The notes under the pieces are model-generated. The model was not told where the DNA came from. It saw only the letters and a list, made by a program, of their open reading frames with translations, and ran no database searches. From Bacillus multifaciens (lineage in GTDB: Bacteria > Bacillota > Bacilli > Bacillales > Bacillaceae_G), in the NCBI RefSeq assembly GCF_030756675.1, contig NZ_JAVBXD010000020.1, positions 1 through 64,000 on the forward strand: a stretch of DNA of 64,000 bases, given 5' to 3'. A program made the translations under genes and the position numbers. Below, in pieces: positions 24,137-41,053 of this stretch (the stretch's first letter is position 1; each line of letters opens with the position of its first letter).

Positions 24137-24228
24137 CCTAGATAATATAATTTTACAATATCGTTAACATATCCAATCCCTTGCCTTTATATAGCATAAT
24201 ATATAGAAAAATGAAAAGGTGTGATTGG

Positions 24229-27200
24229 ATGGAGACATATGTAATAGAGTTAGATAGGTGGAATATTAAAAACAATGGGACAAATTCCTTTGCTACTACA
24301 AAGGGAATAAATGATGCGTTAGTGTGGGCTAAATCTGAAGGCTATAATCATATTATATTACCAGGCGGCACATATAAGTTAAAAATCGACAGTACAACTT
24401 TTTCATGTATTGTTATGCAAAGTAATATGCATTTTGAAATGGCGGATGGATGTATATTGCAGTTAGAAGCGAATTCATCGCCTTGGTATAGGATATTTGA
24501 AGTCAAAGGAATTAAAAATACAAAGATTAGCGGTGGGAAAATAGCTGGAGATAAAAACATACACATATATGAATTAGGAGTAAAATTTGTAAGAGGAGGC
24601 GTCAATGCTGACGGTTCATTGAATAATCAATCAAACTTTATTCGCAGTGAAATAATAGATAGATATAAAGATCCAGGATTGTTGAAATCTTTTAGACTAT
24701 GGTCTATTTCGGGTTTGGCTGCCAAAGTATATAGTTTTTATCAGTATAAAGATACGGTTTCTGCTAGTACGCTGGCCGGTTTTAGAACAAATGTACAATT
24801 TGCCCCGACGGAGTCAACAGGAAGAGGGTGGTTTGCACCAATAGCCAATGCTAATAAGATGGTTTTTGTGATTGACATTACCTCAACGCCGTTAAGTGAT
24901 ACTCAAATTGCTCAACTTACTGCTACAGTTACTAGTGAAAACTATACCCATGAGTGGGGACAAGGCATAGAAATAACTGGTTCAAATAATATTGAGATAA
25001 ATAATGTAGAGGTATGCGAATGTACTGGGGATGCTATTTCTACGGGATGGCTGCAATATAGAGTTAACCCGGATGAGTATACGCAAGAAGAAATGGGGTC
25101 ACATATCTATATTAACGATTGTGATCTTCATCATTGCAGAAGACAAGGAATTACCCTTGGTGGCTCAAATGATATTTATATTTATAATAATAAAATACAT
25201 CATATCGGAAAAGCGAGTGATAATGTTTCATCGGATTTTCGTAATGGGACTGCTCCAATGTTCGGGATAGATATTGAGTCTCTGGTCAGTGAAAGCAATA
25301 TACCATATAAATCTCCTTACTACGGAAAAGATGGATTAGAATTAAATTTTAGAATCTATATTTACAAAAACTATATTTATAATAACGAAAGAGGACATTT
25401 TGTAAACGCAGACGGTAACAATATAACAATAGAAGATAATACTTTTGAGAGTCGCAATGTTGGAGGCATTAGTTCGTATCCGACAAATATGTATGTAAAA
25501 TATCTTAATAATATTTTTATTAGATGCGAGCTTTGGGTTGAGGGAGATAATTTTGTTAACGGGGTAATTGGAAACAATGCAAACGTAAAACTAGCCGACA
25601 TAAGAGGAGCCACAATACAAAATGTTCGCTTAAAAGACGGGATATTTTATGGCAATGGTAGTTATGGATACTTGGGAACACCTGCTGTAGATGTTGAAAA
25701 CAGCACATTTTCTTTTAAAACGGCTCATGGTATGGGGAATTCTGCTCAAATATGTTTTGAAGAATGGGTAGGCAAAGTTCCTGCTGGAATTAGTGTAGAT
25801 AAAGTATATTATGTAGTAAATCGAACGGACTATAGCTTCCGGGTTTCTGAAAAGATAAATGGTGAACCTGTAGCGATTTATGATTCAGGAGAATGGGGAT
25901 TTAATGTAAGTAGATATAATTACGGGAGATGCTATATCTCAGATGTTGTAGTGGAAAGAGATTGGAATAATGACAGTTCACCAGGGTTTTCCCCTATTCT
26001 GACAGGGGGGGTTATGAAGAATGTCGTAGTTAAGAATTACAATGTAGATATTAAGCCATTTGATAATTATGTGGGAAGACCGAATATAATAGACGGTTTA
26101 ACTATAGTGGGAGCAGGCGGTAATATAAGTTCCTGCAATATAAGCGATAGTAAATTTATAACAGGAACGTATCGAGATATTACGCTAGGTTCTACGCAAA
26201 ATCCTTATGTAGGTGTCTATGCAGAGAGTTGTTTATTTGAAAACATGGGTGTAAATCTTATTAACGCCGTCTTAAGTAATAGTAAGTTTATTAATAATTG
26301 TACAGTTTATAAAAGCGATAATGTTCTACAGGCAATGTTAACTAATAGTTATTTAGAAAATAGTAAAATATTTCTTCACTGGCTGAGTTTACAAAAGGGA
26401 GTGCTCATAGCAAAATGTCTATTTAATAATGTAACTACGGACGTTAGTCCAAATACGATTATGATAGATAACTTAGATATAACTAACTCTTTAGCTGACT
26501 TGAAAGCGCCTGTTGTTACAGCTACTCCAGGTGGAGGTGTATTTAGCGCTTCTCAAAAAGTAACACTAACTACGAATGAACCAGCTAACATGTATTATAC
26601 CCTTGATGGAACAACACCTACCACATCCAGTGCTTTATATACGGGAGGATTGACAATTTCACAATCCACTACATTAAAAGTTCTTGCAGTTGATAACGCA
26701 GGAAATCAAAGTAAGGTAAAAGCATTTAGATATATAATTAAAACGGCTGCTCCGGCTGATGTCACAAATTTAATTGTTTCTGCTGTAAGGAATTCTAGTA
26801 TTGATTTATCATGGACGAAAAGTACGTCTAAGGATGTTGTGATATACGATGTTTATAAAGGGGCAACTTTGTTAGGAAGTGTTACAGGAACAACATATAC
26901 TGCTACAGGGCTTGCTCCAGCAACTCTGTATACATTTACTGTAAAAGCGGTAGATAAGTTCGGGGTTGCTTCAAGCGGTGTATCAGTAACAGCTACTACT
27001 ACTAATGACAATACTCCGCCAAGTGATATAACAAATCTAGTTGCAAGCAGCATTTCAGTTAATACAGTTGGTTTAACTTGGACAAAGAGCGTATCCTCTA
27101 ATGTTCAGTCATACGAGGTGTATCAAGGAGCTACTTTAATCAATTCTGTTACGACGCCTTACTATATTGTACCAGGATTGAAAGCTGCTACGGAATATTC

Positions 27201-27798
27201 GTTCACTGTTAAAACAAAAGATCTAAATGGTAACCTTTCAAGCGGTGTAAATGTAAAGGTAATAACACAGACAACAGCAGCAAATTATGTAACAGACGGA
27301 CTTCTTTTATACCAAGAAAATCCTGTGAACAATTCAACTATTTTAAATCCGGACAGTTATTTTATAACAAATAAGCCATTTACAATTTCTCTCACAGTTC
27401 AATGTCCTATATCATCTTCTTTATTAAGAAGATTTGGCGGTTCAGATAATAAGTTTAAAATTGAACGAAATACGAATAACCAATTTGCAGCACAGTTTTG
27501 GGCTAAAAATATAAATACGGGCAGTAATGATTATCCTTCAGTTAGTTCAAGTGTTTATACTGATGAAACAGCCTATTATCAGGTGGTTGTCTTGCGAAAT
27601 AGCGCAAATCTTATTATGTATGTTAATAATGTAGAAGCAGCTAGGTATATGATGGGAAGTGATAAGGTGATTAACGAATCCACACTGCCAATGCTTTTAG
27701 GTACAAGTGCAAAAACAATAGTATTTAAGAATATTGCTTATTATATCCGAGCGTTAACAACTGCTGAATTAACGCAAAATTATAATGCTTTAAAATAG
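24229..27798 (+). CDS. phage-tailspike-like beta-helix protein with chitobiase-type, FN3 and LamG-like domains
   Basis: 1189 residues from ATG 24229 (AAAGGTG upstream). The start resembles phage pre-neck appendage and tailspike depolymerases: WNIKNNGTNSFATTKGIND, then WAKSEGYNHIILPGGTYKL. A long right-handed beta-helix region (about 70-750) has many N-rich turns. It is followed by a chitobiase C-terminal-like domain (about 757-845, YYTLDGTTPTTSSALYTGG), two fibronectin-III domains (about 842-924 and 930-1014) and a LamG-like carbohydrate-binding domain (about 1024-1189). No signal peptide is visible, so its export route is unclear. As the last gene before a terminator in the eps block, a role in cutting or binding the polymer is inferred. 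Confidence 0.75.
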   Translation: METYVIELDRWNIKNNGTNSFATTKGINDALVWAKSEGYNHIILPGGTYKLKIDSTTFSCIVMQSNMHFEMADGCILQLEANSSPWYRIFEVKGIKNTKISGGKIAGDKNIHIYELGVKFVRGGVNADGSLNNQSNFIRSEIIDRYKDPGLLKSFRLWSISGLAAKVYSFYQYKDTVSASTLAGFRTNVQFAPTESTGRGWFAPIANANKMVFVIDITSTPLSDTQIAQLTATVTSENYTHEWGQGIEITGSNNIEINNVEVCECTGDAISTGWLQYRVNPDEYTQEEMGSHIYINDCDLHHCRRQGITLGGSNDIYIYNNKIHHIGKASDNVSSDFRNGTAPMFGIDIESLVSESNIPYKSPYYGKDGLELNFRIYIYKNYIYNNERGHFVNADGNNITIEDNTFESRNVGGISSYPTNMYVKYLNNIFIRCELWVEGDNFVNGVIGNNANVKLADIRGATIQNVRLKDGIFYGNGSYGYLGTPAVDVENSTFSFKTAHGMGNSAQICFEEWVGKVPAGISVDKVYYVVNRTDYSFRVSEKINGEPVAIYDSGEWGFNVSRYNYGRCYISDVVVERDWNNDSSPGFSPILTGGVMKNVVVKNYNVDIKPFDNYVGRPNIIDGLTIVGAGGNISSCNISDSKFITGTYRDITLGSTQNPYVGVYAESCLFENMGVNLINAVLSNSKFINNCTVYKSDNVLQAMLTNSYLENSKIFLHWLSLQKGVLIAKCLFNNVTTDVSPNTIMIDNLDITNSLADLKAPVVTATPGGGVFSASQKVTLTTNEPANMYYTLDGTTPTTSSALYTGGLTISQSTTLKVLAVDNAGNQSKVKAFRYIIKTAAPADVTNLIVSAVRNSSIDLSWTKSTSKDVVIYDVYKGATLLGSVTGTTYTATGLAPATLYTFTVKAVDKFGVASSGVSVTATTTNDNTPPSDITNLVASSISVNTVGLTWTKSVSSNVQSYEVYQGATLINSVTTPYYIVPGLKAATEYSFTVKTKDLNGNLSSGVNVKVITQTTAANYVTDGLLLYQENPVNNSTILNPDSYFITNKPFTISLTVQCPISSSLLRRFGGSDNKFKIERNTNNQFAAQFWAKNINTGSNDYPSVSSSVYTDETAYYQVVVLRNSANLIMYVNNVEAARYMMGSDKVINESTLPMLLGTSAKTIVFKNIAYYIRALTTAELTQNYNALK

Positions 27799-27830
27799 GA
27801 ACCAATCGTTAAATGGAATAAGGGAATAGA

Positions 27831-27882
27831 AAAAGCATCTCAATTTGTTATGTTAGAACAACGAACTGGTGTGCTTTTTTTT
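27831..27882 (+). terminator. intrinsic terminator ending the main eps block
   Basis: AAAAGCA (27831-27837) pairs with TGCTTTT (27872-27878), with an inner TTGTT/AACAA stem, then a run of T. It separates the beta-helix gene from galE. Confidence 0.7.
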
Positions 27883-27927
27883 ATGTTTTGTGTAAAAAGA
27901 CATATGATAACAAGGAGGAAAAAACAC

Positions 27928-28956
27928 ATGAAAATTTTAGTGACAGGCGGAGCAGGGTATATTGGAACTCATACGTGTGTAGAATTATTAAATGCCGGAT
28001 ATGAGATAATTGTCGTTGATAATTTTTCAAATAGTAAACCAGAAGCTTTAAAACGTGTTCGTGAAATCACAGGGAAAGATTTTACATTTTATCAGGCAGA
28101 TATATTAGATAAAGAGATGTTAGATAGCATTTTTAATGAAAATCAGATTGATGCTGTTATTCATTTTGCAGGACTAAAGGCGGTGGGCGAGTCGGTTGCG
28201 TTACCACTTTGGTATTATCATAATAACATTACAGGTACACTTGTATTATGCGAAGTCATGAAAAAGCATGGTGTAAAGAAAATGGTCTTTAGTTCTTCAG
28301 CGACAGTATATGGAATGGCGGAACAAGTACCGATTTCCGAGAGTTTTGCACTTGGGGCAACGAATCCTTATGGACGCACAAAACAAATAATTGAAGAAAT
28401 ATTACGTGATTTGTATATGTCTGACCATGAGTGGAGCATTTCTCTTTTACGTTATTTTAATCCAATTGGAGCACATAAAAGCGGGCGAATTGGAGAGGAT
28501 CCAAAAGGCATTCCAAATAATCTTATTCCGTACATTACGCAAGTAGCTGTTGGAAAGCTAAGTGAATTAAGCGTTTTTGGGAATGACTATCCAACACAAG
28601 ATGGTACAGCTATGAGAGATTATATACATGTTACAGATCTTGCGATGGGACATTTAAAAGCACTTGAAAAGATATCGAGATCTCAAGGGGTAGAAGCGTA
28701 TAATTTAGGGACAGGATGTGGTTATAGCGTATTGGAAATGGCAGCCGCTTTTGAAAAAGCATCCGGTAGGAAAATTCCTTATAAAATTGTAAATCGTCGT
28801 CCGGGTGATGTAGCTATTTGTTATGCGAATGCAACAAAAGCTAAATTAGAGTTAGGATGGGTTGCTAAAAGAGGAATGAAAGAGATGTGTGAAGATTCAT
28901 GGAGATGGCAGTTCAATAATCCAAATGGTTATGAGGAAAAAAATTATATATTATAA
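27928..28956 (+). CDS. galE: UDP-glucose 4-epimerase
   Basis: Interconverts UDP-glucose and UDP-galactose (or the HexNAc forms), supplying precursors to the EPS enzymes. A 342-residue SDR protein with the NAD-binding [10 protein letters not shown] at 6-15, SSSATVYG near 120, the catalytic YxxxK in NPYGRTKQ near 148-152, and RRPGDVA near 290. The start is ATG 27928 behind AAGGAGG; a longer frame runs through the preceding terminator and is not credible. It begins the second EPS block. Confidence 0.93.
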
Positions 28957-29268: not shown

Positions 29269-29460
29269 TTTATATAAATACGAATTGAAAATCGACATAA
29301 AACCGTTCTTTATAATGAACTAGCACCTGTTCATGTGTAGATATGATCAGTACTTTTTCTGACACGTTCAAAGTGAAACAAAAGAGAGAAAACAAGTATA
29401 GGTTCTTTTTTTCTGCATAACGGCAACTTATATGTTGAAAAATCAAAAAGATTTATATAT
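29269..29460 (+). repeat. bcr1-type repeat flanked by TTTAT
   Basis: Nearly full length. It starts TTTATATAAATACGAATTG and ends AAAATCAAAAAGATTTATAT, so TTTAT occurs at both ends as described for bcr1. It fills most of the 307-bp gap before the sugar transferase gene. The segment GTTCTTTATAATGAAC (29305-29320) happens to resemble a SinR operator. Confidence 0.75.
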
Positions 29461-29532: not shown

Positions 29533-30123
29533 ATGAAAAGAACTTTTGATTTATTGATTTCTTTGTTTTTGTTATTGTGTTTATCTTTTGTCATCTTTGT
29601 AGTAGCCATTTTGGTTAGATTGAAGTTAGGATCACCTATCATATTTAAACAACAACGTCCAGGACTATATGGCAAACCATTTTATCTTTACAAATTTCGC
29701 ACAATGACTGATGAAAAAGATAATAAGGGTAATCCTTTGTCTGATCAAGTAAGATTAACTACATTTGGTAAGTTTCTTAGGAAATATAGTTTAGATGAAT
29801 TGCCACAACTAATAAATGTTGTGAAAGGTGATATAAGTTTAGTAGGACCGAGACCATTGTTAATGGAATACTTACCTTTATATACTAGTGAACAAGCTAA
29901 AAGACATCATGTAAAACCTGGAATTACTGGCTGGGCACAAGTGAATGGGAGGAACGCAATTACCTGGGAAGAAAAATTTGAATTAGATGTATGGTATGTA
30001 AATAATCAATCTTTCTTAATTGATATGAAAATATTATTTCTTACACTAATAAAAGTGTTTAAATCAGAAGGAATAAATCAGGATGGTCATGTAACAATGG
30101 AACGTTTTAGGGGGATAAGATAG
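29533..30123 (+). CDS. epsL: EpsL-like initiating phosphoglycosyl transferase
   Basis: Transfers a phospho-sugar, probably the bacillosamine-type sugar made by EpsC/EpsN/EpsM, to undecaprenyl phosphate to begin repeat-unit synthesis. 196 residues, the short monotopic form: one N-terminal re-entrant helix (5-30), the [12 protein letters not shown] block, KFRTM, the catalytic Asp-Glu of SLDELPQ near 97, VGPRPLL, and [14 protein letters not shown] near the end. ATG 29533 is about 11 bp after TAGGAG, rather far. epsM and epsN follow closely. Confidence 0.92.
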
Positions 30124-30143
30124 ACTGTGAGGGAAGGTAACAA

Positions 30144-30776
30144 ATGAAAATTATAATGATTGGACAAGGTGGTCACAGTAAAGTTATAAAGGATATTATT
30201 TTGTCAAACAAGACATATGAAATTGTTGGATATTTAGATGATCAATATGAAGATATAACTATAGTAGATAATACTTATTTCGGCCCGATTTCAAGTGTAG
30301 ATGAAATGATTAAAGATTTTAAGCAAGCAAAATTTGTTATTGCCATAGGAAATAATAAAGTTAGAAAAAAAATCGCCGAGAAATTGAATCTGCCTGACAA
30401 TTGTTATGTCACGCTAATACATAAAACAGCCGTTATAAGTCCGAATGCTAAGATAGGGAACGGTACAGTTGTTATGCCCCGTGCAGTGATTAATGCTGAT
30501 ACTCAAATTGGCAATCATTCTATTATCAATACAGGTTCTGTTGTTGAACATGACAATGTACTAGGTGATTTTGTCCATATTTCTCCACATGCCACACTTA
30601 CAGGTTCTATCATCATTGAAAAAGGGGCGCATATAGGGGCAGCGGCTACTCTGATTCCAAGTGTTAAAATTGGAGAATGGTCTGTTATTGGAGCGGGAGC
30701 GGTTGTGATAAAGGACATTCCCCCTAAGTGTACAGCCGTTGGAATTCCTGCCAAAGTAATTAATAAATTGAACTAA
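30144..30776 (+). CDS. epsM: EpsM-like sugar N-acetyltransferase (NeuD/PglD family)
   Basis: Acetylates the UDP-4-amino-4,6-dideoxy sugar from EpsN, the third step of UDP-bacillosamine synthesis. It has a Rossmann-like N-terminal domain (IIMIGQGGHSKVIKDII, 3-19) and a left-handed beta-helix C-terminal domain. The catalytic-type histidine is in GSVVEHDNVLGDFVHISP near 132-149, followed by VGIPAKVI. Length 210 is normal. ATG 30144 follows GAGGGAAGG. It sits between epsL and epsN in the order conserved in B. subtilis. Confidence 0.92.
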   Translation: MKIIMIGQGGHSKVIKDIILSNKTYEIVGYLDDQYEDITIVDNTYFGPISSVDEMIKDFKQAKFVIAIGNNKVRKKIAEKLNLPDNCYVTLIHKTAVISPNAKIGNGTVVMPRAVINADTQIGNHSIINTGSVVEHDNVLGDFVHISPHATLTGSIIIEKGAHIGAAATLIPSVKIGEWSVIGAGAVVIKDIPPKCTAVGIPAKVINKLN

Positions 30777-30790
30777 TAGGAGTGATAAAC

Positions 30791-31942
30791 ATGGTAATAA
30801 CACAACAGAAAAAACGAATCTATCTCTCTACTCCGCATATGAGTGGCAATGAGCAAAAATATATACAAGATGCATTTGATACAAACTGGATTGCTCCTCT
30901 TGGTCCAAATGTAGACGCTTTTGAAAAAGAACTCGCATCATTTGTTGGAGCTAGAGATGCTGCAGCAGTTAGTTCTGGTACTGCAGCTATTCACTTAGCT
31001 CTTCGGTTATTAGGGGTTCAAAAAGGGGATAAAGTGTTTTGTTCAAGTCTTACTTTTATAGCAAGTGCTAATCCAATTGTTTACCTAGGGGCTGAACCAG
31101 TATTTATCGATTCAGAGCCAGAAACATGGAACATGTCGCCGCAGGCTTTAGAACGTGCGTTAATTAATGCTCATAAAAAAGATAAATTGCCAAAAGCTAT
31201 TATCACTGTTAACTTATATGGACAGAGCGCAAAAATGGATGAGATCTGCTCTTTATCTAATCAATATAATGTTCCTATTATTGAGGATGCAGCAGAATCT
31301 TTAGGTTCTACATATAAAGGAAAAGCTAGTGGTACATTTGGTAAATTTGGTATTTATTCATTTAATGGAAACAAAATTATTACAACTTCGGGTGGAGGAA
31401 TGCTTATTTCTGATGACGTTGAGGCATTAGAGAAAGCACGTTTTTTTGCAACCCAAGCAAGGGATGTAGCACCTCATTATCAGCATAGCGAGACGGGATA
31501 TAATTATCGAATGAGTAATATATTAGCTGGTATTGGAAGAGCCCAATTAGAAGTGTTAGAAGGTAGAGTGAAGGCTAGAAGATTAATATTTGAACGGTAT
31601 TATCAAGAATTATCTAGTATACCAGGGTTTTATTTTATGCCTGAATTAGAAAATACTCATTCAAATCGTTGGCTCACAACTTTAACAATTGATGAAAAAG
31701 AAACAGGCATATCTATTCAATCGTTATTGAAGGCTCTAGCTGAAGAAAATATTGAATCTCGTCCTGTGTGGAAGCCGCTTCATATGCAACCGGTTTTTGA
31801 TGGAGTAGAATATTATTCTCATAGTGAAAATCACAATGTGTCTGAACAATTATTTAAAACAGGTATATGTCTTCCCTCTAGTTCAAATATGACAGAGACG
31901 GATCAGCAAAAGGTTATTCAATGTATTAAAAATGCTTTTTAA
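30791..31942 (+). CDS. epsN: EpsN-like PLP-dependent aminotransferase (DegT/DnrJ/EryC1/StrS family)
   Basis: Aminates the 4-keto sugar made by EpsC. 383 residues from ATG 30791, 8 bp after TAGGAG (a GTG 9 bp earlier is weaker). It shows TNWIAPLGPNVDAFEKEL, SSGTAAIHLAL, EDAAESLGSTYKG, the PLP lysine K195 in FNGNKIITTSGGG, and YNYRMSNILAGIG, all diagnostic of this sugar aminotransferase family. It is the last gene of the EPS locus and is followed by a strong terminator. Confidence 0.93.
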   Translation: MVITQQKKRIYLSTPHMSGNEQKYIQDAFDTNWIAPLGPNVDAFEKELASFVGARDAAAVSSGTAAIHLALRLLGVQKGDKVFCSSLTFIASANPIVYLGAEPVFIDSEPETWNMSPQALERALINAHKKDKLPKAIITVNLYGQSAKMDEICSLSNQYNVPIIEDAAESLGSTYKGKASGTFGKFGIYSFNGNKIITTSGGGMLISDDVEALEKARFFATQARDVAPHYQHSETGYNYRMSNILAGIGRAQLEVLEGRVKARRLIFERYYQELSSIPGFYFMPELENTHSNRWLTTLTIDEKETGISIQSLLKALAEENIESRPVWKPLHMQPVFDGVEYYSHSENHNVSEQLFKTGICLPSSSNMTETDQQKVIQCIKNAF

Positions 31943-31947: not shown

Positions 31948-31994
31948 AAGAGCCTTCTGAATGAGACATGTAAATTCAGAAGGTTCTTTTTATT
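31948..31994 (+). terminator. strong intrinsic terminator after epsN
   Basis: AAGAGCCTTCTGAAT pairs with ATTCAGAAGGTTCTT (one G-T pair) around an 11-base loop and is followed by a T run. It closes the EPS locus before the regulator gene. Confidence 0.9.
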
Positions 31995-32571: not shown

Positions 32572-32913
32572 GTGATTGGGAGAAATATTTATCAAATTCG
32601 AAAGAAAAAGGGGTTTACTTTATCTGAATTAGCAGAGAGAGCCGGAATTTCAAAATCCTATTTAAGTAATATTGAAAGAAGTATAAATCAGAATCCGTCT
32701 ATCCAAGTGCTAGAAAAGATAGCATCCGTATTAGAATCAGATCTCAATACGTTACTCGAAGCGAAAACAAATACAGGAACAAAACAGCAGATCGAAAAAG
32801 AGTGGATTGATTTTGTTTATGAATTAAAAAAGGCAGGTATACATACAGAAAAGCTTGGGGATTACAAAATATTAATTGATTTTATTAGGTGGCAGAACTC
32901 TAGGACGAGATAA
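32572..32913 (+). CDS. SinR-like XRE-family repressor
   Basis: A 113-residue paralogue of the biofilm master repressor SinR, colinear over its whole length. The N-terminal HTH (6-62) contains SELAERAGISKSYLSNIERS and NPSIQVLEKIASVL. B. subtilis SinR has AGVAKSYLSSIER in the recognition helix, so the DNA target should be close to GTTCTYT. The C-terminal part (75-110, EWIDFVYELKKAGI and FIRWQ) matches the SinR/SinI dimerisation region, so it may be held by a SinI-type antagonist. None is adjacent. GTG 32572 is 10 bp after GGGAGGG. It lies between the eps and lasso operons, both preceded by SinR-type palindromes. Confidence 0.85.
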   Translation: MIGRNIYQIRKKKGFTLSELAERAGISKSYLSNIERSINQNPSIQVLEKIASVLESDLNTLLEAKTNTGTKQQIEKEWIDFVYELKKAGIHTEKLGDYKILIDFIRWQNSRTR

Positions 32914-33132
32914 GTAAGAGAAAGTATGAAATGTGTTAAGTAGTTTATCCTTGTTTAGAAATTGTACATAAAAAGATTGATTCCTCTTCATTTTCTAATG
33001 TGCTCACTTTATAGAGAAATCAAGACTACCACCATGATCACACAAATTTGTTGTTAGCGTACATTTTAATTATCTTTTCACCTCCATCATTCAGATTAAC
33101 TATAATATATTTTATTTCATTTCATCTAGAAT

Positions 33133-33148
33133 TGTAAGCGTTTTTACA
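33133..33148. promoter_or_regulatory. palindrome resembling a CcpA cre site
   Basis: TGTAAGCGTTTTTACA has 5-bp symmetric ends and matches the cre consensus TGWAARCGYTWNCW except for one position when read from the first base. It is about 900 bp before the lasso cyclase, so its target is unclear. Confidence 0.3.
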
Positions 33149-33495
33149 AAACGTAACAGTAATACCCTACATCTTGAAGTTCGACAAAAAATAAAAAGTT
33201 ATGCAAGAGATAAACTTCTGGTACATTTTTATATAGATATCATTAAGATCCTGTTGAAAAAAGCTTCAGTGCATATTTATCACTCAATACTGTAAAATAG
33301 GGAATTTATTTATGGTATTGAATCTATAATAAAAAATGAAGGAACTAAAGATAAAATTCTAAAAATTATATATAGAAAGTAAAGATTCTCAACATTCAAA
33401 TTACAAAGAGGAAGAATATATCTCTATCCATAAATATTTCAAATTATATAAAAAAACATTTACAAACTGAATATCATTATATAAAATGAAAGCAA

Positions 33496-33511
33496 GTTCG
33501 TTATACAGAAC
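33496..33511. promoter_or_regulatory. SinR-like operator 1 upstream of the lasso operon
   Basis: GTTCGTTATACAGAAC: inverted GTTC/GAAC arms in the same 16-bp geometry as the other sites. The arms differ at the fifth base, so this is a weaker match. Confidence 0.4.
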
Positions 33512-33633
33512 GTTAATAAACTTAAATGTTTACTTTAAGGGAATATGTTTATTTGAATAGTGAAATGTATAATCTTAATTCAATGTAGATTCATTAGGTT
33601 TGGAAATGGATAAAATATACTTTTTCCATTAAA

Positions 33634-33649
33634 ATTCTCTATAAAGAAC
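33634..33649. promoter_or_regulatory. SinR-like operator 2 upstream of the lasso operon
   Basis: ATTCTCTATAAAGAAC: it has TTCTCT in the left arm and AAAGAAC in the right arm, 44 bp before the candidate -35 element. It differs from the optimal inverted GTTCTYT pair mainly at the first base. Confidence 0.5.
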
Positions 33650-33692
33650 TTCAAGGGGAAAACTTTTAAAGTTGAAAATACGCGATATTATA

Positions 33693-33721
33693 TTGACATA
33701 ATAAAATAAGGATGCTAATTT
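33693..33721 (+). promoter_or_regulatory. candidate sigma-A promoter of the lasso operon
   Basis: TTGACA (33693-33698), 17-bp spacer, TAATTT (33716-33721). The perfect SinR-like palindrome at 33735-33750 would lie just after the transcription start, a repressing position. This leaves a leader of roughly 300 bases before the cyclase. Confidence 0.5.
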
Positions 33722-33734
33722 ATATTTTGCGTTT

Positions 33735-33750
33735 GTTCTATTTATAGAAC
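33735..33750. promoter_or_regulatory. SinR-like operator 3, perfect palindrome
   Basis: GTTCTATTTATAGAAC has perfect 7-bp arms (GTTCTAT/ATAGAAC) separated by 2 bp, the spacing of inverted SinR half-sites. Confidence 0.55.
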
Positions 33751-33829
33751 AAAATAGTGATATAAGAAATTATATGTATACAATGATTCGTAGATTTTAT
33801 CTGTTATTTTTGTCAAACAATACAGATTC

Positions 33830-33845
33830 GTTCTTTAAAGAGAAT
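33830..33845. promoter_or_regulatory. SinR-like operator 4, closest to the B. subtilis site
   Basis: GTTCTTTAAAGAGAAT differs at only two positions from the inverted SinR site GTTCTCTAAAGAGAAC as I recall it. It lies about 190 bp before the cyclase start. Confidence 0.55.
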
Positions 33846-34031
33846 GGATAGAATGAATAGTATAGAGAGTTTATTACATATTAGCGGTTATTTATCCTGT
33901 ATTAACGATTAGTAACCCTTACTTTCAGATTCTGAGGAATTAAGAGAAAATAGGTGAAGAAAACCTCTTTGATAATCGTGTCACTTTATCTGATTGGATA
34001 TGACTTATTTGCTGCAAAACGGGAGGGAAAA

Positions 34032-35972
34032 ATGAGTGCTATAACTGGAATTTTACATTTTAACAATGAGTCAATACCGATTGAATACGGTATTAGATTA
34101 ATGAATGATTTGCAAAAATATCCTGCTAATGATATTCAAATATGGCACAAAGAGAACGTTTTCCTCGGCTGTCACGCGCAATGGGTCACACCTGAGTCTG
34201 TTGGTGAACAATTACCTTTTTATGATAACGAAAGAAAATTGGCGATTACAGCAGATGCTATTATCGATAATCGTGAAGAGTTATTTGAGAGGTTGCAAGT
34301 CGATTATGCTGATAGGAAAAGGATAACAGATAGTCAGTTAATTTTGCTCTCCTATCAAAAATGGGGTGAAGAAAGCCCTAAATATTTGGTAGGCGATTTT
34401 ACCTTTATGATTTGGGATGAAAAAAACCAAAAATTATTTGGAGCAAGGGACTTTTCTGGGAGTCGAACTCTATATTATTGTTGTAATCAACAGCAATTAG
34501 CTTTTTGTACGACAATACAACCATTGCTGTCATTACCTTATGTTCGAAAGCAATTAAATGAACAGTGGCTTGCTGAATACTTAGCGATATGTGGAATGGT
34601 TGATGTAGCCGATACCACTATAACGCCTTATAAAAATATAGAACAAGTACCACCATCTCATAGCATTAGGGTAGTTGGGAATAAAGTAACGCTTTCTAGA
34701 TATTGTACGTTAGTTCCAGAAAGAAAGCTTCGCTTAAAGTCAAATGAAGAATATGTAGAAGCATTTCAAGAGGTTTTTCAAGAGGCTGTTACATCTCGAG
34801 TACGAACTTACCGACAAGTTGGAGCACAGCTAAGTGGAGGATTGGATTCGGGTTCTATTGTGAGCTTTGCTGCCAAAGTTTTACGTGAAGAAAACAAACC
34901 ATTACATACATTTAGCTACATACCAACAAATGATTTCGAGGATTTTACACCTAAACATTTAATGCCGAATGAGCGACCGCTTATTAAAGAAACGGTACGA
35001 CATGTAGGAGGTATAGAAGACAATTATTTAGATTTTAAGGGAAGGGATTCCTTTTCTGAAATAACGGATTTCCTCGAAATTATGGAAATACCATATAAAT
35101 TCTTTGAAAATTCTTTTTGGATGAAAGGAATGTTTGAGGAAGGGTACAAGGAAGACGTTGGAGTCCTTTTAAATGGTGGAAGAGGAAATCTATCTATATC
35201 ATGGGGATCAGCTCTGGATTATTATGCTCTTCTTTTAAAAAGGCTAAAGTGGATTCGCCTAGCCCAAGAATTGCATCAATATAGTAAAAATGTAGGTGGA
35301 GCCAGGTTGCGGAGGTTACCATTCATTGCGAGGTTGGCATTTCCGTCTATTGATCGAGCGTTCTCATCAGGTACGCCGTATATATTTCCGATGGTAATTA
35401 ATCCGGATTTTGCAAAAAAGATGGATGTGTTTAATAAACTTAGGGAATATGGAATTGATGAAACGGGATGGTTTTCTGCAGCGAACATATATGAACAAAG
35501 AAAAAGTCACTTTGAAGAGTTGTTTCACTGGAATGCAAGTAATACAGTGGCAACAAAATTATCATTGCACTACTCATTGTGGAAACGCGATCCAAGTAAT
35601 GACATACGTGTGATTCGTTATTGTTTATCTGTACCAGAAGAGCAATATGTACAAAAAGGTGTGGATCGTGCGTTGATTCGTAGATCTACCGAAAAGTATT
35701 TGCCTGATAAAGTACGATTAAATCAACATATTCAAGGTGTACAAGGAGCGGATTGGGTTCATCGAATGAGTCCACACTGGAATATGTTTATAGAAGAGTT
35801 AGAGCAAATGAGTATAGACCAAAGAGCTTTAGAGTTTTTAGATGGTGAAGTAATAAAGCGAGCTCTTCTAAAAGCGAAAGAGGGGCCTCTTTCAGAACGT
35901 GCAATCGATCCTGATTATAAGATTTTAATGCGTAGCTTAATTGTTTATCGATTTATTCAACAATTTAATTGA
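34032..35972 (+). CDS. lasC: lasso peptide isopeptide-bond cyclase (asparagine synthetase-like, LasC)
   Basis: Activates the ring-closing Asp/Glu side chain with ATP and forms the macrolactam of the lasso peptide encoded next. 646 residues from ATG 34032 (ACGGGAGGG upstream). The N-terminal class-II amidotransferase-like domain begins MSAITGI, so the catalytic Cys2 of true asparagine synthetases is Ser and glutaminase activity should be lost, as expected of a cyclase. The synthetase domain has the PP-loop LSGGLDSGSIVSFAAK near 275. It is the first gene of an operon in the order C-A-K-B1-B2-N-D, the arrangement of paeninodin-type clusters. Confidence 0.9.
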   Translation: MSAITGILHFNNESIPIEYGIRLMNDLQKYPANDIQIWHKENVFLGCHAQWVTPESVGEQLPFYDNERKLAITADAIIDNREELFERLQVDYADRKRITDSQLILLSYQKWGEESPKYLVGDFTFMIWDEKNQKLFGARDFSGSRTLYYCCNQQQLAFCTTIQPLLSLPYVRKQLNEQWLAEYLAICGMVDVADTTITPYKNIEQVPPSHSIRVVGNKVTLSRYCTLVPERKLRLKSNEEYVEAFQEVFQEAVTSRVRTYRQVGAQLSGGLDSGSIVSFAAKVLREENKPLHTFSYIPTNDFEDFTPKHLMPNERPLIKETVRHVGGIEDNYLDFKGRDSFSEITDFLEIMEIPYKFFENSFWMKGMFEEGYKEDVGVLLNGGRGNLSISWGSALDYYALLLKRLKWIRLAQELHQYSKNVGGARLRRLPFIARLAFPSIDRAFSSGTPYIFPMVINPDFAKKMDVFNKLREYGIDETGWFSAANIYEQRKSHFEELFHWNASNTVATKLSLHYSLWKRDPSNDIRVIRYCLSVPEEQYVQKGVDRALIRRSTEKYLPDKVRLNQHIQGVQGADWVHRMSPHWNMFIEELEQMSIDQRALEFLDGEVIKRALLKAKEGPLSERAIDPDYKILMRSLIVYRFIQQFN

Positions 35973-35986
35973 AAGGAGGTGAGAAC

Positions 35987-36142
35987 ATGAAAAAGGAATG
36001 GCAACAACCTGTATTAGAAGTACTTGATGTTAACATGACAATGGCTTCAACAGTTTATGGTCCATATACTGACGAAGCATATAATCCTGGTACACCTGTT
36101 GATCCAAATAATCCAAATACTTGGGACCGTTTTACTAGCTGA
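35987..36142 (+). CDS. lasA: paeninodin-type lasso peptide precursor (LasA)
   Basis: A 51-residue precursor behind a strong site (GAAAGGAGGTGAGAAC), 14 bp after the cyclase. The leader MKKEWQQPVLEVLDVNMTMA carries the W-x2-P-x-L recognition motif (YxxPxL type) bound by the RRE protein, and Thr18. The core is STVYGPYTDEAYNPGTPVDP plus NNPNTWDRFTS (31 residues if it starts at Ser21, 32 if at Ala20). Counting from Ser21, Asp29 is position 9, giving a normal 9-residue ring. Counting from Ala20 (Thr at -2) the first acid is position 10. It ends in Ser, the residue phosphorylated in paeninodin. The core is long and Pro/Asn-rich. Confidence 0.9.
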   Translation: MKKEWQQPVLEVLDVNMTMASTVYGPYTDEAYNPGTPVDPNNPNTWDRFTS

Positions 36143-36231
36143 TTGCGAAGTAGCATATACAATTTTTCTTGCTGAATGTATATCTATGAAGCTATGTAAG
36201 ATGTTCTTATTTTTAAGTTTGTATATGCTAA

Positions 36232-36272
36232 AAAGACCTTTATACTTTTTTATTGTATAAAGGTCTTTCATT
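36232..36272 (+). terminator. attenuating terminator after the lasso precursor gene
   Basis: AAAGACCTTTATAC (36232-36245) and GTATAAAGGTCTTT (36255-36268) form a perfect 14-bp stem with a 9-base loop, followed by CATTT. Partial read-through would give much more precursor mRNA than maturation-enzyme mRNA. Confidence 0.85.
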
Positions 36273-36300
36273 TAATCATGGATATATTGGAGTGAAAATA

Positions 36301-37227
36301 ATGCTAGAAACTGAAAAAAAGGTTATGTATAAAGCCTTTGATTTCAAAATTTCAAGTGAAATTCCTTTGCCGGAATTAAATCGAATAAATGAGCAAGAGG
36401 TTTCGATAGACATTGAAATTGAAATTGATAATATGTTAAGTTTTTCCTCTGAATTAGTAGATACACCATTTAAACATGTTGTTAAAGATGATCAAGTGAT
36501 GTTTTATGTTCCTGATGTGGGCTTTTTTTCCGCTCAAGCGGGAAAAAGGATAGCAGTTTGCCCACTCGATGGTGCAGATGATAGTTTGGTCAGGCTATAT
36601 ATTCTTGGAACATGTATGGGTGTAGTATTGATGCAAAAAAAAATACTTCCTTTGCATGGTAGTGCTGTAGTAATTGATGGGAAAGCATATGCTTTTGTAG
36701 GTGATTCAGGTGCTGGAAAGTCGACGTTAGCTTCAGCGTTTTTGAAGAGAGGATATAAACTTGTAAGTGATGATGTAATAGCTGTATCACTTTCTAACGA
36801 TAATGTTCCTATTGTAACACCATCATATCCGCAGCAAAAGTTATGGCAAGAGAGTCTTGAGAATTTTGGTATGGATAAAAGCCAATATAAATCAATATAT
36901 GGTAGAGAAAATAAATACAGTGTGCCAGTTTCTTCTCATTATTTTTCTAAGCCAGTACCACTTGCGGGTGTATTTGAACTAGTAAAGACAGAGAATGAAA
37001 TGATTGAATTACAACAAGTTGAAAAACTTGAGCGTTTACATACCCTCTTCCGTCAAACTTATCGTAATTTTCTCATTCCACGCTTAGGATTAATGGACTG
37101 GCACTTTCACATTTCTACAAATATGATAAACAACCTTGCTGTTTATCGATTATGTCGACCGTTGTCTGGATTTAGTGCTCCGCAACTAGTAGACCTAGTA
37201 ATAAACACTATAAATAAAGGAGAATAA
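36301..37227 (+). CDS. lasK: lasso peptide serine kinase (HPr kinase-like, PadeK/PsmK type)
   Basis: Predicted to phosphorylate the C-terminal Ser of the precursor before cyclisation, as shown for paeninodin-type kinases. 308 residues from ATG 36301 (GGAGTG upstream); an open frame from 36253 lies inside the terminator and is rejected. HPr-kinase features are LPLHGSAVVIDGKAYAF (117-132), the P-loop GDSGAGKST (134-142) and LVSDDVIAV (154-162). The N-terminal region is unlike HprK and fits the peptide-kinase group. It immediately precedes the RRE gene. Confidence 0.88.
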   Translation: MLETEKKVMYKAFDFKISSEIPLPELNRINEQEVSIDIEIEIDNMLSFSSELVDTPFKHVVKDDQVMFYVPDVGFFSAQAGKRIAVCPLDGADDSLVRLYILGTCMGVVLMQKKILPLHGSAVVIDGKAYAFVGDSGAGKSTLASAFLKRGYKLVSDDVIAVSLSNDNVPIVTPSYPQQKLWQESLENFGMDKSQYKSIYGRENKYSVPVSSHYFSKPVPLAGVFELVKTENEMIELQQVEKLERLHTLFRQTYRNFLIPRLGLMDWHFHISTNMINNLAVYRLCRPLSGFSAPQLVDLVINTINKGE

Positions 37228-37230
37228 GTG

Positions 37231-37536
37231 ATGTCGAAAAAGCAGGATATTTCATTAAATCAATTTATTGCACAAGTCCCAGGAAATATCGTAAGTGATA
37301 TGGATGGAGAAAAAGTAATGTTAAGTATTTCTAATGGGAAATACTACAATCTAGGTGCAGTAGGTGGAATTATTTGGGCGCTTATAGAGAAACCAATATC
37401 GGTTACCAAAGTAGTTACTGAACTAATGCAAGAATATGACATTGATCAGTCTACATGTGAAAAGCAAGTTATTTCTTTTTTGGAGCTTTTGTTAGATGAA
37501 GCTTTGATTGAAATCGTAGAAGAGGCAGCCGAGTAA
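37231..37536 (+). CDS. lasB1: lasso RiPP recognition element protein, PqqD-like (LasB1)
   Basis: Binds the W-x2-P-x-L leader motif and delivers the precursor to the leader peptidase and other enzymes. 101 residues from ATG 37231, behind GGAGAATAAGTG. The winged-helix PqqD fold is recognisable from DMDGEKVMLSISNGKYYNLG, then AVGGIIWALIEKP, then a C-terminal helix pair ending FLELLLDEALIEIV. It lies between the kinase and the peptidase, the standard B1-B2 order in Firmicute clusters. Confidence 0.9.
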   Translation: MSKKQDISLNQFIAQVPGNIVSDMDGEKVMLSISNGKYYNLGAVGGIIWALIEKPISVTKVVTELMQEYDIDQSTCEKQVISFLELLLDEALIEIVEEAAE

Positions 37537-37575
37537 TCTAGTATTTTATTCTAGATAAGAAGTAGGGAAGTGTGT

Positions 37576-38028
37576 ATGAATATACTAAAAAAGATACGAA
37601 CGTTTCTTTCATTAGATATGAAAACAATGTTTTTATTAATAGAGGCTTATATTTATTTGGGATGGGCTCGTATTCTTAAAGGTAGGCCATTCTCTAAGGT
37701 TGCTCCTACATTAGGTGTTCCAATGAATGAAACATCTTTAAGTTATAATGAGTCTAATAAATTTGTATTGAGAGATATTTCCGAAGCAATACATATTATG
37801 AGCCGTCATACCTTTTGGGAAAGTAAGTGTCTTGTAAGGGCAATAGCTGGAATGAAAATGCTAGAGAGACGACAAATGGAGAGTACACTATATTTAGGAA
37901 CTGCGAAGGATGAGAACGGAAATATGATTGCTCATGCATGGTTGCGTAGCGGCCCTTTTTATATTACTGGAGCAGAAGAAATGAAGAGGTTCACTGTAGT
38001 TAGTAAATTTGCTAGAAAAATTGGTTAA
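37576..38028 (+). CDS. lasB2: lasso leader peptidase, transglutaminase-like (LasB2)
   Basis: Cleaves the leader so the core N-terminus can attack the activated acid. 150 residues from ATG 37576 (AGGGA upstream). The cysteine-protease core shows Cys85 in ESKCLVRAIAGMKML and His120 in IAHAWLRSGPFYITG, matching LasB2/McjB C-domains. The acidic third member of the triad is not obvious after the histidine. An N-terminal helix bundle precedes it. Stand-alone B2 beside a separate B1 is the Gram-positive form. Confidence 0.9.
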   Translation: MNILKKIRTFLSLDMKTMFLLIEAYIYLGWARILKGRPFSKVAPTLGVPMNETSLSYNESNKFVLRDISEAIHIMSRHTFWESKCLVRAIAGMKMLERRQMESTLYLGTAKDENGNMIAHAWLRSGPFYITGAEEMKRFTVVSKFARKIG

Positions 38029-38049
38029 AAAATCTTGAAGGAGAATATC

Positions 38050-39237
38050 ATGCATAATAGTTTTGGGCTTGATTTAAGATGTGTGCCTAAGGAGCTCAAA
38101 TTGCAGCTTGAAATCATGAAAAGAGAGACTGCTGCGGAGCTACAAGAAATCGATAAGGCTTGGTTTGAAAACATTGATTGGGATAAGTTTCTCGAACTAA
38201 CAATTCATCACCGTGTGTATTCGTTTATTTATCCAAAGATGAAAGTGTTGGATGGGAATTTGGTTCCTGTACATGTCATGCAAACTTTACATCAATATTT
38301 TAAGATGAATACATTTCAAATGCTGCATTTAAGTGCAGAAATGGAACATGTGAGTAAATTGTTTGCTGAAAACGAAATTCGTCTCCTTGTATTAAAAGGT
38401 CCTGTACTTGCTGATGATCTTTATGGTGATATTTCTCTACGTACTTCGAGTGATTTGGATGTTCTCATTCCCTTACATAATCTCGATAGAGCGGAAGAAC
38501 TTTTATTGAACCTTGGCTATGTTAAAGATGATTATATTGTTAGCGTTTTAAATGATTGGAAATGGAGACATCATCATATAACATATATTCATCCTCAGAA
38601 GAACATTAAGATCGAAATTCATTGGAGACTAAATCCTGGTCCAGGAAAGGAACCAAACTTTGAAGAACTATGGAAACGAAAGAGAATAAGTTCACTTACT
38701 AGTAACCCTGTTTACATTTTAGGTAGGGAAGATCTATTTTTATTTCTTGTTTCTCATGGTGCACGTCATGGTTGGTCAAGGCTGCGTTGGTTAGTAGACA
38801 TTAATCAAATTGTAAAGCAACAACTTGATTGGGAAAAAATTATTAAGTTATTGAAGAAATATCATTACCTTCAAATAGGTAGTCAAGCATTGTTTTTAAC
38901 TTCGCAGTTACTAAAAACTCCATTAATTGAAGAAGTGGAACCATTGTTATCTGGAAACCGTCCGAAGATGTTAGCACAAGAAGCAGTATTTTATTTAGAA
39001 AAAATGGTGAACTTACATACAGATCCTGTTCCAGATGACGTAGCGATGTACCATAGTCGTCACTTATTTTCATTAATGTCTTATCAGCAAAAGTTTTTAT
39101 ATCTTGTAAGCTGTCTTTATCCTTATCCAATTGATGCTGAAACATTGCCGTTACCTAAGCAACTTCATATGTTGTACTTTCCTTTACGTCCTATTTTATG
39201 CATCTGGAGAAAAGTAAGAAAGCACGAATTATCATGA
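38050..39237 (+). CDS. nucleotidyltransferase-family tailoring protein (NTP_transf_5, PsmN-like)
   Basis: 395 residues from ATG 38050, 6 bp after AAGGAG. LLVLKGPVLADDLYGD (about 114-130) and RTSSDLDVLIPL (near 132-143) form the pol-beta-type site with the paired Asp of DLDVL. HHITYIHPQKNIKIEIHWRL follows. This uncharacterised nucleotidyltransferase family recurs in kinase-bearing lasso clusters. In the pseudomycoidin cluster, as I recall, the homologue adds further groups to the phosphorylated C-terminus. Here it likely acts after the kinase; the group transferred is unknown. Confidence 0.82.
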   Translation: MHNSFGLDLRCVPKELKLQLEIMKRETAAELQEIDKAWFENIDWDKFLELTIHHRVYSFIYPKMKVLDGNLVPVHVMQTLHQYFKMNTFQMLHLSAEMEHVSKLFAENEIRLLVLKGPVLADDLYGDISLRTSSDLDVLIPLHNLDRAEELLLNLGYVKDDYIVSVLNDWKWRHHHITYIHPQKNIKIEIHWRLNPGPGKEPNFEELWKRKRISSLTSNPVYILGREDLFLFLVSHGARHGWSRLRWLVDINQIVKQQLDWEKIIKLLKKYHYLQIGSQALFLTSQLLKTPLIEEVEPLLSGNRPKMLAQEAVFYLEKMVNLHTDPVPDDVAMYHSRHLFSLMSYQQKFLYLVSCLYPYPIDAETLPLPKQLHMLYFPLRPILCIWRKVRKHELS

Positions 39238-39250
39238 GGAGGACAAAATA

Positions 39251-41053
39251 GTGGAACATCTCTTATATTTTGCAAAGAAGTTACATTCTTTTTCTGGGAA
39301 AATATTGTATATAAATCTATTAGGGATGGCCTTAGTCAGTCTTTTGGAGGGAATAGGAATTCTTTTATTAATTCCTACGATAAGTATCAGTGGAGTTGTA
39401 AAGGTAGATAATGGTTCAACCCCAGTTCCAGAGATGTTAAAATTTCTGCACAATATTCCTGAAACAATAAGTTTGTTGCTTATCTTAGGCATTTATATCT
39501 TTTTGGTAATAGCTCAGTCCCTCTTACAGCAAAATCTTACCCTTCGCAATACAAAAATTCTTATGAATTTTACAAACCATATAAGATTGGAAATTTATCG
39601 TGCTTTATTACAGGCGAATTGGGCTTTTTTTGTGAAAAAGAGGAAGTCTGATCTTATCAATGCGATGACTGAAGAATTAGGACGCGTTATAAATGGAACA
39701 AACTTATTTTTTCAGATGTTAACTGCCCTTATTTTTACACTAATACAGCTTGGAATCGCCTTATGGCTATCTGTAAAAATAACAATTTTTGTACTATTCG
39801 CTGGTTTAGTACTTGCCTATTTTTCTAGACATTTTATAAAAAAGTCAAGAGCGCTAGGAAATCAAACATCTGAGATAGCTAAAAGTTATCTAGGGGGTAT
39901 AACAGACCATTTTAATGGAGTTAAAGATATTAAAAGTAATATGTTGGAAGAATCTAGATATACATGGTTGCACAATTGGTGCCAAAAGATAGAGCGAGAG
40001 CAATTGGCATTTATAAAATTGAAAAATGGCTCACAACTTTTTTATAAAGTTACATCGTCTATTCTAATTGCATTTCTTATTTTTACATCTGTAAAACTAT
40101 TCCAAGCCCAGCCGGGACAATTAATATTAATTATCCTAATTTTTTCTAGGTTATGGCCGCGATTTACAAGTATTCAGTCTAACCTGGAACAACTTGCTGC
40201 AAGTGTTCCTGCTTTTAAGTCTTTAATCGAATTGCAGGAAGACTGTCACAAAGCCGCGGAACTGCAGGATATAGAACGACAATATAAAAATGTAAAGCCA
40301 ATGTCTATAGAAAAGGGGATTGAATGTCGAAATATTTATTTTCGATACAATTCGAAGGAATCCTTATATGCTCTTCAAAATATCAATTTCCAGATACCTT
40401 CCAACTGTATGACAGCTATTGTCGGTCGTTCGGGAGCTGGAAAAAGTACCTTAATTGATATTTTAATGGGACTTATGCAACCAGAAAAAGGACATGTATT
40501 AATAGATGGTACTCCGCTCACAAGTGATAATTTATTGTCATTAAGAAAATCTATTAGCTATGTTCCACAAGATCCATTTTTATTTAATGCAAGCATAAGA
40601 GAAAATTTGTTGATGATTGAACCAAATGCAAGTGAAGAACAAATTTGGGAGGCATTGGAATTTTCGGCAGCTGCTGAATTTGTACGAAGACTTCCGCAAG
40701 GACTTGATACATTCATTGGAGATCGCGGAGTTAGGCTTTCTGGAGGAGAGCGACAACGGCTTGTACTAGCACGAGCTATTTTAAGAAAACCTTCGATTCT
40801 AGTGCTAGATGAAGCGACAAGTGCGTTAGATACGGAAAATGAAGCGAAAATTCAAACTGCTCTAGAAAGATTAAAAGGAAAGATGACCATTATCGTGATT
40901 GCCCATCGTTTATCAACGATACGTAATGCTGATCAAGTAATTGTATTAGATAAGGGAGAAATCGTTCAAAAAGGAGCCTTTGTCCAGTTGGCAAAAGAAA
41001 AAAGAGGTATGTTTAGTAAGCTGTTAGGAAATCAGGTAGAAGTTAGCGTATAG
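39251..41053 (+). CDS. lasD: lasso peptide ABC exporter (LasD)
   Basis: Exports the mature peptide and usually gives self-immunity. A 600-residue half-transporter with fused domains: about six membrane helices (20-310) and an ATPase domain with Walker A VGRSGAGKST near 390, signature LSGGERQR near 496 and Walker B ILVLDEATSALD near 516. There is no N-terminal peptidase (C39) domain, as expected when a LasB2 peptidase is present. GTG 39251 follows GAGGAGGACAAAATA. It is the last gene of the lasso operon. Confidence 0.9.
   Translation: MEHLLYFAKKLHSFSGKILYINLLGMALVSLLEGIGILLLIPTISISGVVKVDNGSTPVPEMLKFLHNIPETISLLLILGIYIFLVIAQSLLQQNLTLRNTKILMNFTNHIRLEIYRALLQANWAFFVKKRKSDLINAMTEELGRVINGTNLFFQMLTALIFTLIQLGIALWLSVKITIFVLFAGLVLAYFSRHFIKKSRALGNQTSEIAKSYLGGITDHFNGVKDIKSNMLEESRYTWLHNWCQKIEREQLAFIKLKNGSQLFYKVTSSILIAFLIFTSVKLFQAQPGQLILIILIFSRLWPRFTSIQSNLEQLAASVPAFKSLIELQEDCHKAAELQDIERQYKNVKPMSIEKGIECRNIYFRYNSKESLYALQNINFQIPSNCMTAIVGRSGAGKSTLIDILMGLMQPEKGHVLIDGTPLTSDNLLSLRKSISYVPQDPFLFNASIRENLLMIEPNASEEQIWEALEFSAAAEFVRRLPQGLDTFIGDRGVRLSGGERQRLVLARAILRKPSILVLDEATSALDTENEAKIQTALERLKGKMTIIVIAHRLSTIRNADQVIVLDKGEIVQKGAFVQLAKEKRGMFSKLLGNQVEVSV

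Follow-up and report, generated by a model that had tools for sequence, protein, structure and literature searches.

Predicted SinR-type operators common to an exopolysaccharide locus and a lasso peptide operon of Bacillus multifaciens

How is a lasso peptide operon controlled when it lies directly behind an exopolysaccharide (EPS) locus? The question is raised by a stretch of 64,000 nucleotides from Bacillus multifaciens (NCBI RefSeq assembly GCF_030756675.1, contig NZ_JAVBXD010000020.1, positions 1 to 64,000; the window hereafter). In it, an EPS locus of about 30 kb (wzz at 1532 to epsN at 31942) is followed by a hairpin, a gene for a SinR-like regulator and, after 1.1 kb without a large open reading frame (ORF), a seven-gene lasso operon (34032-41053). 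Predicted SinR-type operators are common to the eps genes and the lasso operon, and their conservation in Bacillaceae and Paenibacillaceae is strongly supported by sequence comparison. We consider it likely that the lasso operon belongs to a SinR-type matrix regulon and would be made with EPS when SinR activity lifts. The component parts are of known kinds; the joining of a paeninodin-type lasso operon to such a regulon is apparently new.

Predicted operators in the window

The inverted repeat GTTCTNTNNANAGAAC, which has the form of a SinR operator, is present in the window as two exact sites (1379 and 33735) and five sites with one mismatch. When up to two mismatches are allowed there are 14 matches, compared with 3.76 ± 1.79 in 100 dinucleotide shuffles, none of which reaches 14. 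An earlier, sequence-only reading of this DNA had named palindromes at 1379, 33496, 33634, 33735 and 33830; all are present, and they are of a kind that is commoner here than in shuffled sequence. B. subtilis SinR binds an inverted-repeat oligonucleotide with a dissociation constant of 300 nM, and this oligonucleotide fits the window motif (PMC3163267).

To avoid circularity, a position weight matrix (PWM) was trained on 85 sites, all of them from other species and located upstream of lasC or wzz. Its seven best positions in the window are, in descending order, 1379, 29305, 3278, 33634, 33496, 33735 and 33830 (scores 23.8 to 16.9). All seven are intergenic and precede eps, epsC, epsL or the lasso operon; ranks 8 to 12 (13.0 down to 9.5) all fall inside genes. 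The five palindromes named earlier are thus among the top seven, and the sites at 3278 and 29305 are additions to them. Twelve matches exceed the threshold in the whole window, versus 0-3 in each of 15 shuffles, and the best scores of the eps, epsC, epsL and lasso regions were reached by none of the shuffles. The 1.1-kb region upstream of the lasso operon holds four matches over threshold, a number that 0 of 300 shuffles reach, and neighboring lasso operators are spaced 95-138 bp apart. No PWM match was found in the region upstream of the SinR-like regulator gene.

The operator at 1379 fills the spacer between a -35-like TTGACT (1372) and a -10-like TAAAAT (to 1400). This overlap is suggestive only, because such promoter-like pairs are equally common in shuffles. 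A candidate promoter for the lasso operon, upstream of the third lasso operator, is listed in Table 1.

Conservation and specificity of the sites

We drew 299 genomes from the order of Neobacillus novalis regardless of EPS content, and identified a lasso kinase homologue in 63 of them. Sixty lasso stretches, each of up to 20 kb around the kinase and cut at contig ends, cover 59 of these 63 genomes (G119, G185, G235 and G303 were left out, as was a second G013 copy, and G157 is represented twice). A site with at most one mismatch is present within 450 bp before lasC in 48 of the 60 stretches; the number is 24 for exact sites and 56 with up to two mismatches. Among 350-bp upstream regions (those shorter or with a late-starting match were left out, and some stretches hold two cyclase matches), a site was found before lasC in 51/74, wzz in 11/12, epsC in 5/12, the kinase in 9/62 and every other gene of the set in 0-2. 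Five dinucleotide shuffles per region gave means of 0.4 for lasC and 0.0 for Wzz, and 20 scrambled palindromes gave a mean of 0.6 before lasC.

Sites tend to occur in groups. At least two non-overlapping sites (up to two mismatches) are present in 35 of 56 site-bearing lasC regions and in 10 of 11 Wzz regions, with a spacing of 50-100 bp in 32 of 51 cases. For Paenibacillaceae, 18 stretches from 17 genomes were covered; the genomes were chosen from regulator loci and are not an unbiased draw. A lasC site with at most one mismatch was identified in 16 of the stretches, including that of P. alginolyticus, where lasC is preceded by two operators (L284). In the Gottfriedia family a lasso kinase was found in 3 of 19 genomes (best 59% identical), and no close relative of the window is among them.

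Exact sites are rare. The 17 relatives' genomes scanned contain 47 in total (0-5 each), compared with 4 for the reversed-pattern control. A lasso kinase or SinR-like gene is located no more than 8 kb away from 33 of the 47, and no more than 40 kb away from 37. One site precedes, beside sinR, a gene for SipW (245.7 bits against a cut-off of 190) and another for a TasA-like protein (88.5 bits, short of the cut-off of 450). At four further loci (L243, L244, L245 and L248) the gene behind the sites matches Pfam Wzz; the match exceeds the cut-off in three and falls slightly short of it in the fourth. When one mismatch is allowed, lasso stretches contain 150 sites in 1.17 Mb versus 2 in 0.40 Mb of control DNA (20 stretches of 20 kb at fixed positions in 16 genomes).

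The upstream regions are AT-rich, and palindromes could arise in such DNA by chance. We regard this as scarcely credible given the four lasso matches that no shuffle reproduced, the conservation of the sites in other species and their scarcity in control DNA, which together refute it unless the relatives' sites are artefacts. Ownership of the sites by an unrelated DNA-binding protein with the same half-site is very improbable, as the sites also occur at wzz promoters, before the SipW/TasA-like operon and beside SinR-like genes, which are known classes of SinR target.

Several observations weigh against placing the lasso operon in a SinR-type regulon. In twelve of the 60 lasso stretches, the 450-bp search gave no site with one mismatch or fewer; for two of them it missed sites that are present, within the estimated start in L171 and at 468 and 516 bp in L183. 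Such a site is also missing from 7 of 12 EpsC regions, and only 2 of 8 Paenibacillaceae Wzz regions carry one. One of the 20 scrambled palindromes reached 11/74 before lasC. Only 5 of 21 kinases of the LPP type are preceded by a site, in a set that includes some true lasso kinases. Of the 47 exact sites, ten fall outside the 40-kb limit, and the site of L231, which was assigned to a SinR-like neighbor, is flanked on the opposite side by chromate-transporter genes. Promoter matches are no commoner than in shuffled regions. Related genomes are not independent samples, and the counts carry no kinship correction.

In two genomes, an exact operator is also located between genes for a DUF192 protein and a type IV prepilin peptidase (L236 at 5056, L239 at 4971). 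Another lies inside a gene for a MogR-type protein (L234 at 5007), and one inside a same-sized ORF of another genome (L235 at 5042).

The SinR-like regulator and the reader of the sites

The regulator encoded between the EPS locus and the lasso operon is homologous to SinR over its full length, including the C-terminal oligomerisation part; its best solved relative is B. subtilis SinR (1b0n, E 2e-25, residues 1-111). The recognition helix is nearly that of SinR, as the sequence-only reading had noted: AGISKSYLSNIER differs from AGVAKSYLSSIER of SinR in three residues, among them position 33, which is Asn. This residue is Ser in SinR and Lys in SlrR (PMC3163267). Among 81 hits of at least 50% identity, 78 have Asn33 and 3 have Tyr; Ser is found in 25 of the 31 hits below 44%, and the five hits of 44-50% have Ser (2), Gly (2) or Asn (1).

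In a tree, the eps-linked proteins group together in a single branch that is separate from SinR (100/99, 46 rows), in an analysis with few columns, a rough and unsettled bootstrap, a midpoint root and alternate rows only of closer homologues. Three Asn33 rows fall outside this branch, and the proteins of G018 and G021, the genomes with gene order closest to that of the window, fall inside it without Asn33. The branch appears to be new. A genome scan retained the best 80 of 175 relatives. In 73 of 80 relatives' loci, an epsN homologue is located upstream on the same strand within 4 kb (within 150 bp in 50; none found in 7). This linkage describes the family and is not an enrichment test, because the loci were found using the regulator itself. 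Where the regulator starts within 150 bp of epsN, an operon under its control would also make it. In the window the gene is 630 bp behind epsN, after the hairpin.

Three plasmid records each hold weaker regulator or kinase matches, and matches in PHROGs were limited to phage regulators of a general kind and to proteins without a known function. In L160 (13263) and L173 (6721), the lasso cluster itself contains a SinR-like match (48%), which is flanked by the genes for the exporter and the NTP-transferase.

Which protein reads the sites? A SinR-like hit was obtained at E<=1e-9 in all 26 genomes searched. The lasC region carries a site with at most one mismatch in 20 of 26 cases where the closest regulator homologue is at least 50% identical, in 20 of 21 where it is 41-49% identical (this class is mixed, and some eps-linked regulators, e.g., those of G018 and G021, are among its members), and in 8 of 13 without a hit at E<=1e-22. 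These identity bins replace an earlier hand-made split of the genomes, in which 44-47% hits were mixed with closer ones (27/33 vs 21/27). The sites persist without a close homologue and do not strictly track the eps-linked regulator; thus, ordinary SinR is the economical reader, and may be the protein that reads them. The earlier proposal of a dedicated switch co-controlling both operons is therefore strongly supported as regards the common operators on eps and lasso genes, and is weakened in its choice of the neighboring regulator as that switch.

Two alternatives differ from control by SinR only in the reader of the sites. In the first, the neighboring regulator is a dedicated repressor of eps and lasso genes, separate from SinR. 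Its separate branch, its Asn33 and its tie to epsN are consistent with such a role. So is its linkage to lasso genes: in 37 genomes a lasso kinase occurs along with a regulator homologue that is at least 47% identical, and the two share a contig in 30 and lie within 40 kb in 28 of those 30, the pairing that the sequence-only reading had proposed to look for. We nevertheless find a dedicated repressor rather unlikely, given the frequency of sites in genomes without a close homologue and the letters of the sites, which show no clear difference between the two hand-made genome classes (compared without a statistical test).

In the second alternative, the eps-linked protein is a SlrR-like partner whose binding would inactivate or redirect SinR, and is not mainly a reader of GTTCT sites; being made with the eps operon, it would close a double-negative loop. 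B. subtilis SlrR has a changed residue 33 and is without the SinR dimer-dimer residues (PMC3163267), and in the window protein, Glu97 and Arg105 of SinR align with Ile and Gln in addition to the change at residue 33. The aromatic pair Tyr101/Trp104 of SinR aligns with Phe/Trp. On the SlrR model NF046032, however, the protein scores 83 bits, under the cut-off of 250 and about the same as the G018 protein encoded at the sinR locus, downstream of sipW and a TasA-like gene (80.9). It also lacks Lys33, and the distance from epsN and the intervening hairpin count against this reading. A SlrR-like partner is a possibility that we hold tentatively, with more favor than a dedicated repressor.

Under control by SinR, the eps, epsC, epsL and lasC promoters of planktonic cells would be shut by a SinR-family repressor bound to their GTTCTTTATAAAGAAC-type operators, and where one promoter has several operators, a SinR-type tetramer could bridge them. 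Lifting of SinR activity at the onset of matrix formation would then lead to joint production of EPS and of a phosphorylated, perhaps hexosylated lasso peptide. The eps-linked regulator would most likely join this circuit, where it could repress alongside SinR from the same sites or act as its SlrR-like partner. In B. subtilis, slrR is located beside epsA; the extra SinR-like protein of the window is encoded at the 3' end of eps. Otherwise the arrangement resembles the B. subtilis SinR/SinI/SlrR circuit (epsA-O, yqxM/tapA-sipW-tasA) in the inverted-repeat form of the sites, the eps target, the homologous regulator and the several sites per promoter (PMC3163267), and it differs in adding a lasso operon to the candidate targets.

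A more far-reaching version seems unlikely to us. In it, the eps-encoded protein would be a SlrR-like third SinR paralogue that forms, with SinR, a self-locking double-negative switch across Bacillales. The phospho-hexosyl lasso peptide would be a true matrix component or serve as a matrix signal between cells. Its production would be restricted to locked matrix cells, and the EPS pathway itself might supply the sugars for its decoration.

The lasso operon, the EPS locus and published clusters

EPS genes are common near lasso clusters. EPS queries matched in 42 of the 60 lasso stretches (at least two different queries in 31, core queries in 27), compared with 1, 0 and 0 of 20 controls. The wzz gene is directly behind the exporter gene in 12 of the 60, and the window order of epsL-M-N, regulator and lasso operon recurs in two genomes, G018 and G021 (L128 and L134). 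The sequence-only reading knew of no described system with this arrangement; co-localization of EPS and lasso genes has, however, already been published (PMC13381572, 2026). That study places paeninodin-type and LPP clusters in capsular polysaccharide loci of Bacilli and reports, from reverse-transcription quantitative PCR in P. alginolyticus, that lasso, LPP and eps transcripts rise together in stationary phase (PMC13381572). It gives the role of the paeninodin-type cluster as unknown, leaves a biofilm link as speculation, and notes that products were unseen in ordinary culture, for which it points to unknown modifications (PMC13381572).

The window and the published clusters share the genomic co-localization with EPS genes. 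The joint rise of transcripts is the paper's finding, and the SinR-type operators are ours: SinR, SlrR and TasA are absent from its main text (PMC13381572). A link between SinR and a lasso peptide was not found among the matches listed in the open-access literature, which leaves most subscription papers and all bioRxiv preprints outside; the single paper there that mentions both deals with another topic. The operators suggest that the peptide is switched on together with the biofilm matrix, and thus predict a timing for the widespread paeninodin-type lasso products. They name strains and promoters in which lasso timing can be tested, and matrix-linked timing could partly explain why products were unseen in ordinary culture. 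A little-known regulator branch also gains a likely job.

Second, diverged kinase/exporter sets, most with an NTP-transferase match, adjoin the lasso cluster in L136, L141, L152 and L153. In Paenibacillus, second sets are present beside the lasso cluster in L284, L288, L291, L296, L298, L299 and L300. These second sets are probably the LPP clusters of PMC13381572.

The lasso operon encodes a cyclase, a precursor, an HPr-type kinase, a PqqD-like B1 protein, a B2 protein, an NTP-transferase-fold protein and an exporter (Table 1). The precursor, B1 and B2 all exceed their curated cut-offs, as expected for a paeninodin-type cluster; the cyclase is below that of NF033535, an 'exception' model. Judged by reading, the cyclase probably starts at ATG 34032 and not at GTG 33954, where the ORF was listed. 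Among 78 fetched lasso stretches, best matches are 47-69% identical for the cyclase and 42-60% for the kinase. The nucleotidyltransferase-fold protein may correspond to PsmN (role in PMC9266682), to which it is likened by position and fold name only.

The gene content is that of the paeninodin and pseudomycoidin clusters, and the C-terminal Ser of the precursor is common to both (PMC9266682). Unlike those precursors, the window precursor has a longer ASTVYGPYTDEAYNPG...TWDRFTS form, and the predicted SinR-type operators and possible eps co-control of the window have no counterpart in the text consulted on those clusters (PMC9266682). Precursors of the form ASTVxGPYTDEAYxPGx...RFTS or RFDS are also encoded in L128, L134, L136, L140, L141, L157 and L172, and differ from the AGPG...HYS form. 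The stretch AY.PG....D, in which D is the ninth residue, could form a 9-residue ring.

Table 1. Positions of the predicted operators, genes and other elements in the window, with the basis of each assignment
Feature	Position	Strand	Basis
Operator GTTCTGTATAAAGAAC, eps (wzz) promoter region	1379..1394	.	PWM 23.8, best in window
Operator GTTCTTTATAAAGTAC, before epsC-type gene, just 5' of epsC RNA	3278..3293	.	PWM 20.5, third best
Operator GTTCTTTATAATGAAC, before epsL-epsM-epsN	29305..29320	.	PWM 21.7, second best
Lasso operator 1, GTTCGTTATACAGAAC	33496..33511	.	PWM 19.1
Lasso operator 2, ATTCTCTATAAAGAAC	33634..33649	.	PWM 19.7
Lasso operator 3, GTTCTATTTATAGAAC, just downstream of inferred start site	33735..33750	.	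PWM 18.9
Lasso operator 4, GTTCTTTAAAGAGAAT	33830..33845	.	PWM 16.9
Candidate lasso promoter: TTGACA, 17 bases, TGC-TAATTT	33693..33721	+	By reading; -10 matches 3/6; unlisted by promoter scan
SinR-like regulator, 113 amino acids, eps-linked (mostly Asn33) branch	32572..32913	+	ORF, profile and structure-relative searches, tree
lasC, lasso macrolactam cyclase	34032..35972	+	NF033535 382.5 bits (cut-off 525); Asn_synthase and GATase_7 over cut-off
lasA, paeninodin-family precursor ending ...TWDRFTS	35987..36142	+	NF033524 58 bits, cut-off 27
lasK, HPr-kinase-type lasso kinase	36298..37227	+	Hpr_kinase_C 33.8 bits, cut-off 33.3
lasB1, PqqD-like protein	37228..37536	+	NF033536 136.4 bits, cut-off 80
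lasB2, leader peptidase	37576..38028	+	NF033537 104.9 bits, cut-off 33
Nucleotidyltransferase-fold protein	38035..39237	+	NTP_transf_5 199.4 bits
lasD, ABC exporter	39251..41053	+	ABC_tran and ABC_membrane over cut-off
EPS biosynthesis genes (Wzz, CapB-type kinase, EpsC-type, glycosyltransferases, EpsG-type, Wzx, GalE)	1532..28956	+	ORFs; names by reading translations; relatives by tblastn
epsC RNA	3321..3432	+	Rfam RF01735, 108.4 bits vs gathering score 42
epsL, epsM, epsN homologues	29533..31942	+	ORFs, named by reading; relatives by tblastn
Intrinsic-terminator-like hairpin after epsN	31949..31987	+	By reading
Dispersed repeat copies	29271-29462, 32317-32500, 61296-61516, 61743-61945, 55733-55879, 63842-63985		Sequence comparison
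Dispersed repeat, shorter pieces	near 1160-1240, 3007-3084, 22466-22541		

The eps operon includes an epsC RNA that exceeds the gathering score of its family, as would be expected of an operon controlled by this RNA, which we take to be the EAR antitermination element. The hairpin after epsN was unlisted by the terminator scan because its 11-base loop is larger than the 3-8 bases that the scan allows. Between galE and epsL, a 51-codon ORF was identified by eye at 29070-29225.

Dispersed repeats of up to about 200 bp, with aligned pieces that are 67-84% alike, are located upstream of wzz, epsC, epsL and the regulator gene and elsewhere; they had no match in the plasmid records searched. The copy before epsL carries an operator, and the region before the regulator is without a PWM match. 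Also present, upstream of the EPS locus, is a direct repeat of about 120 bp (243-362 and 838-956) whose copies are 91% identical.

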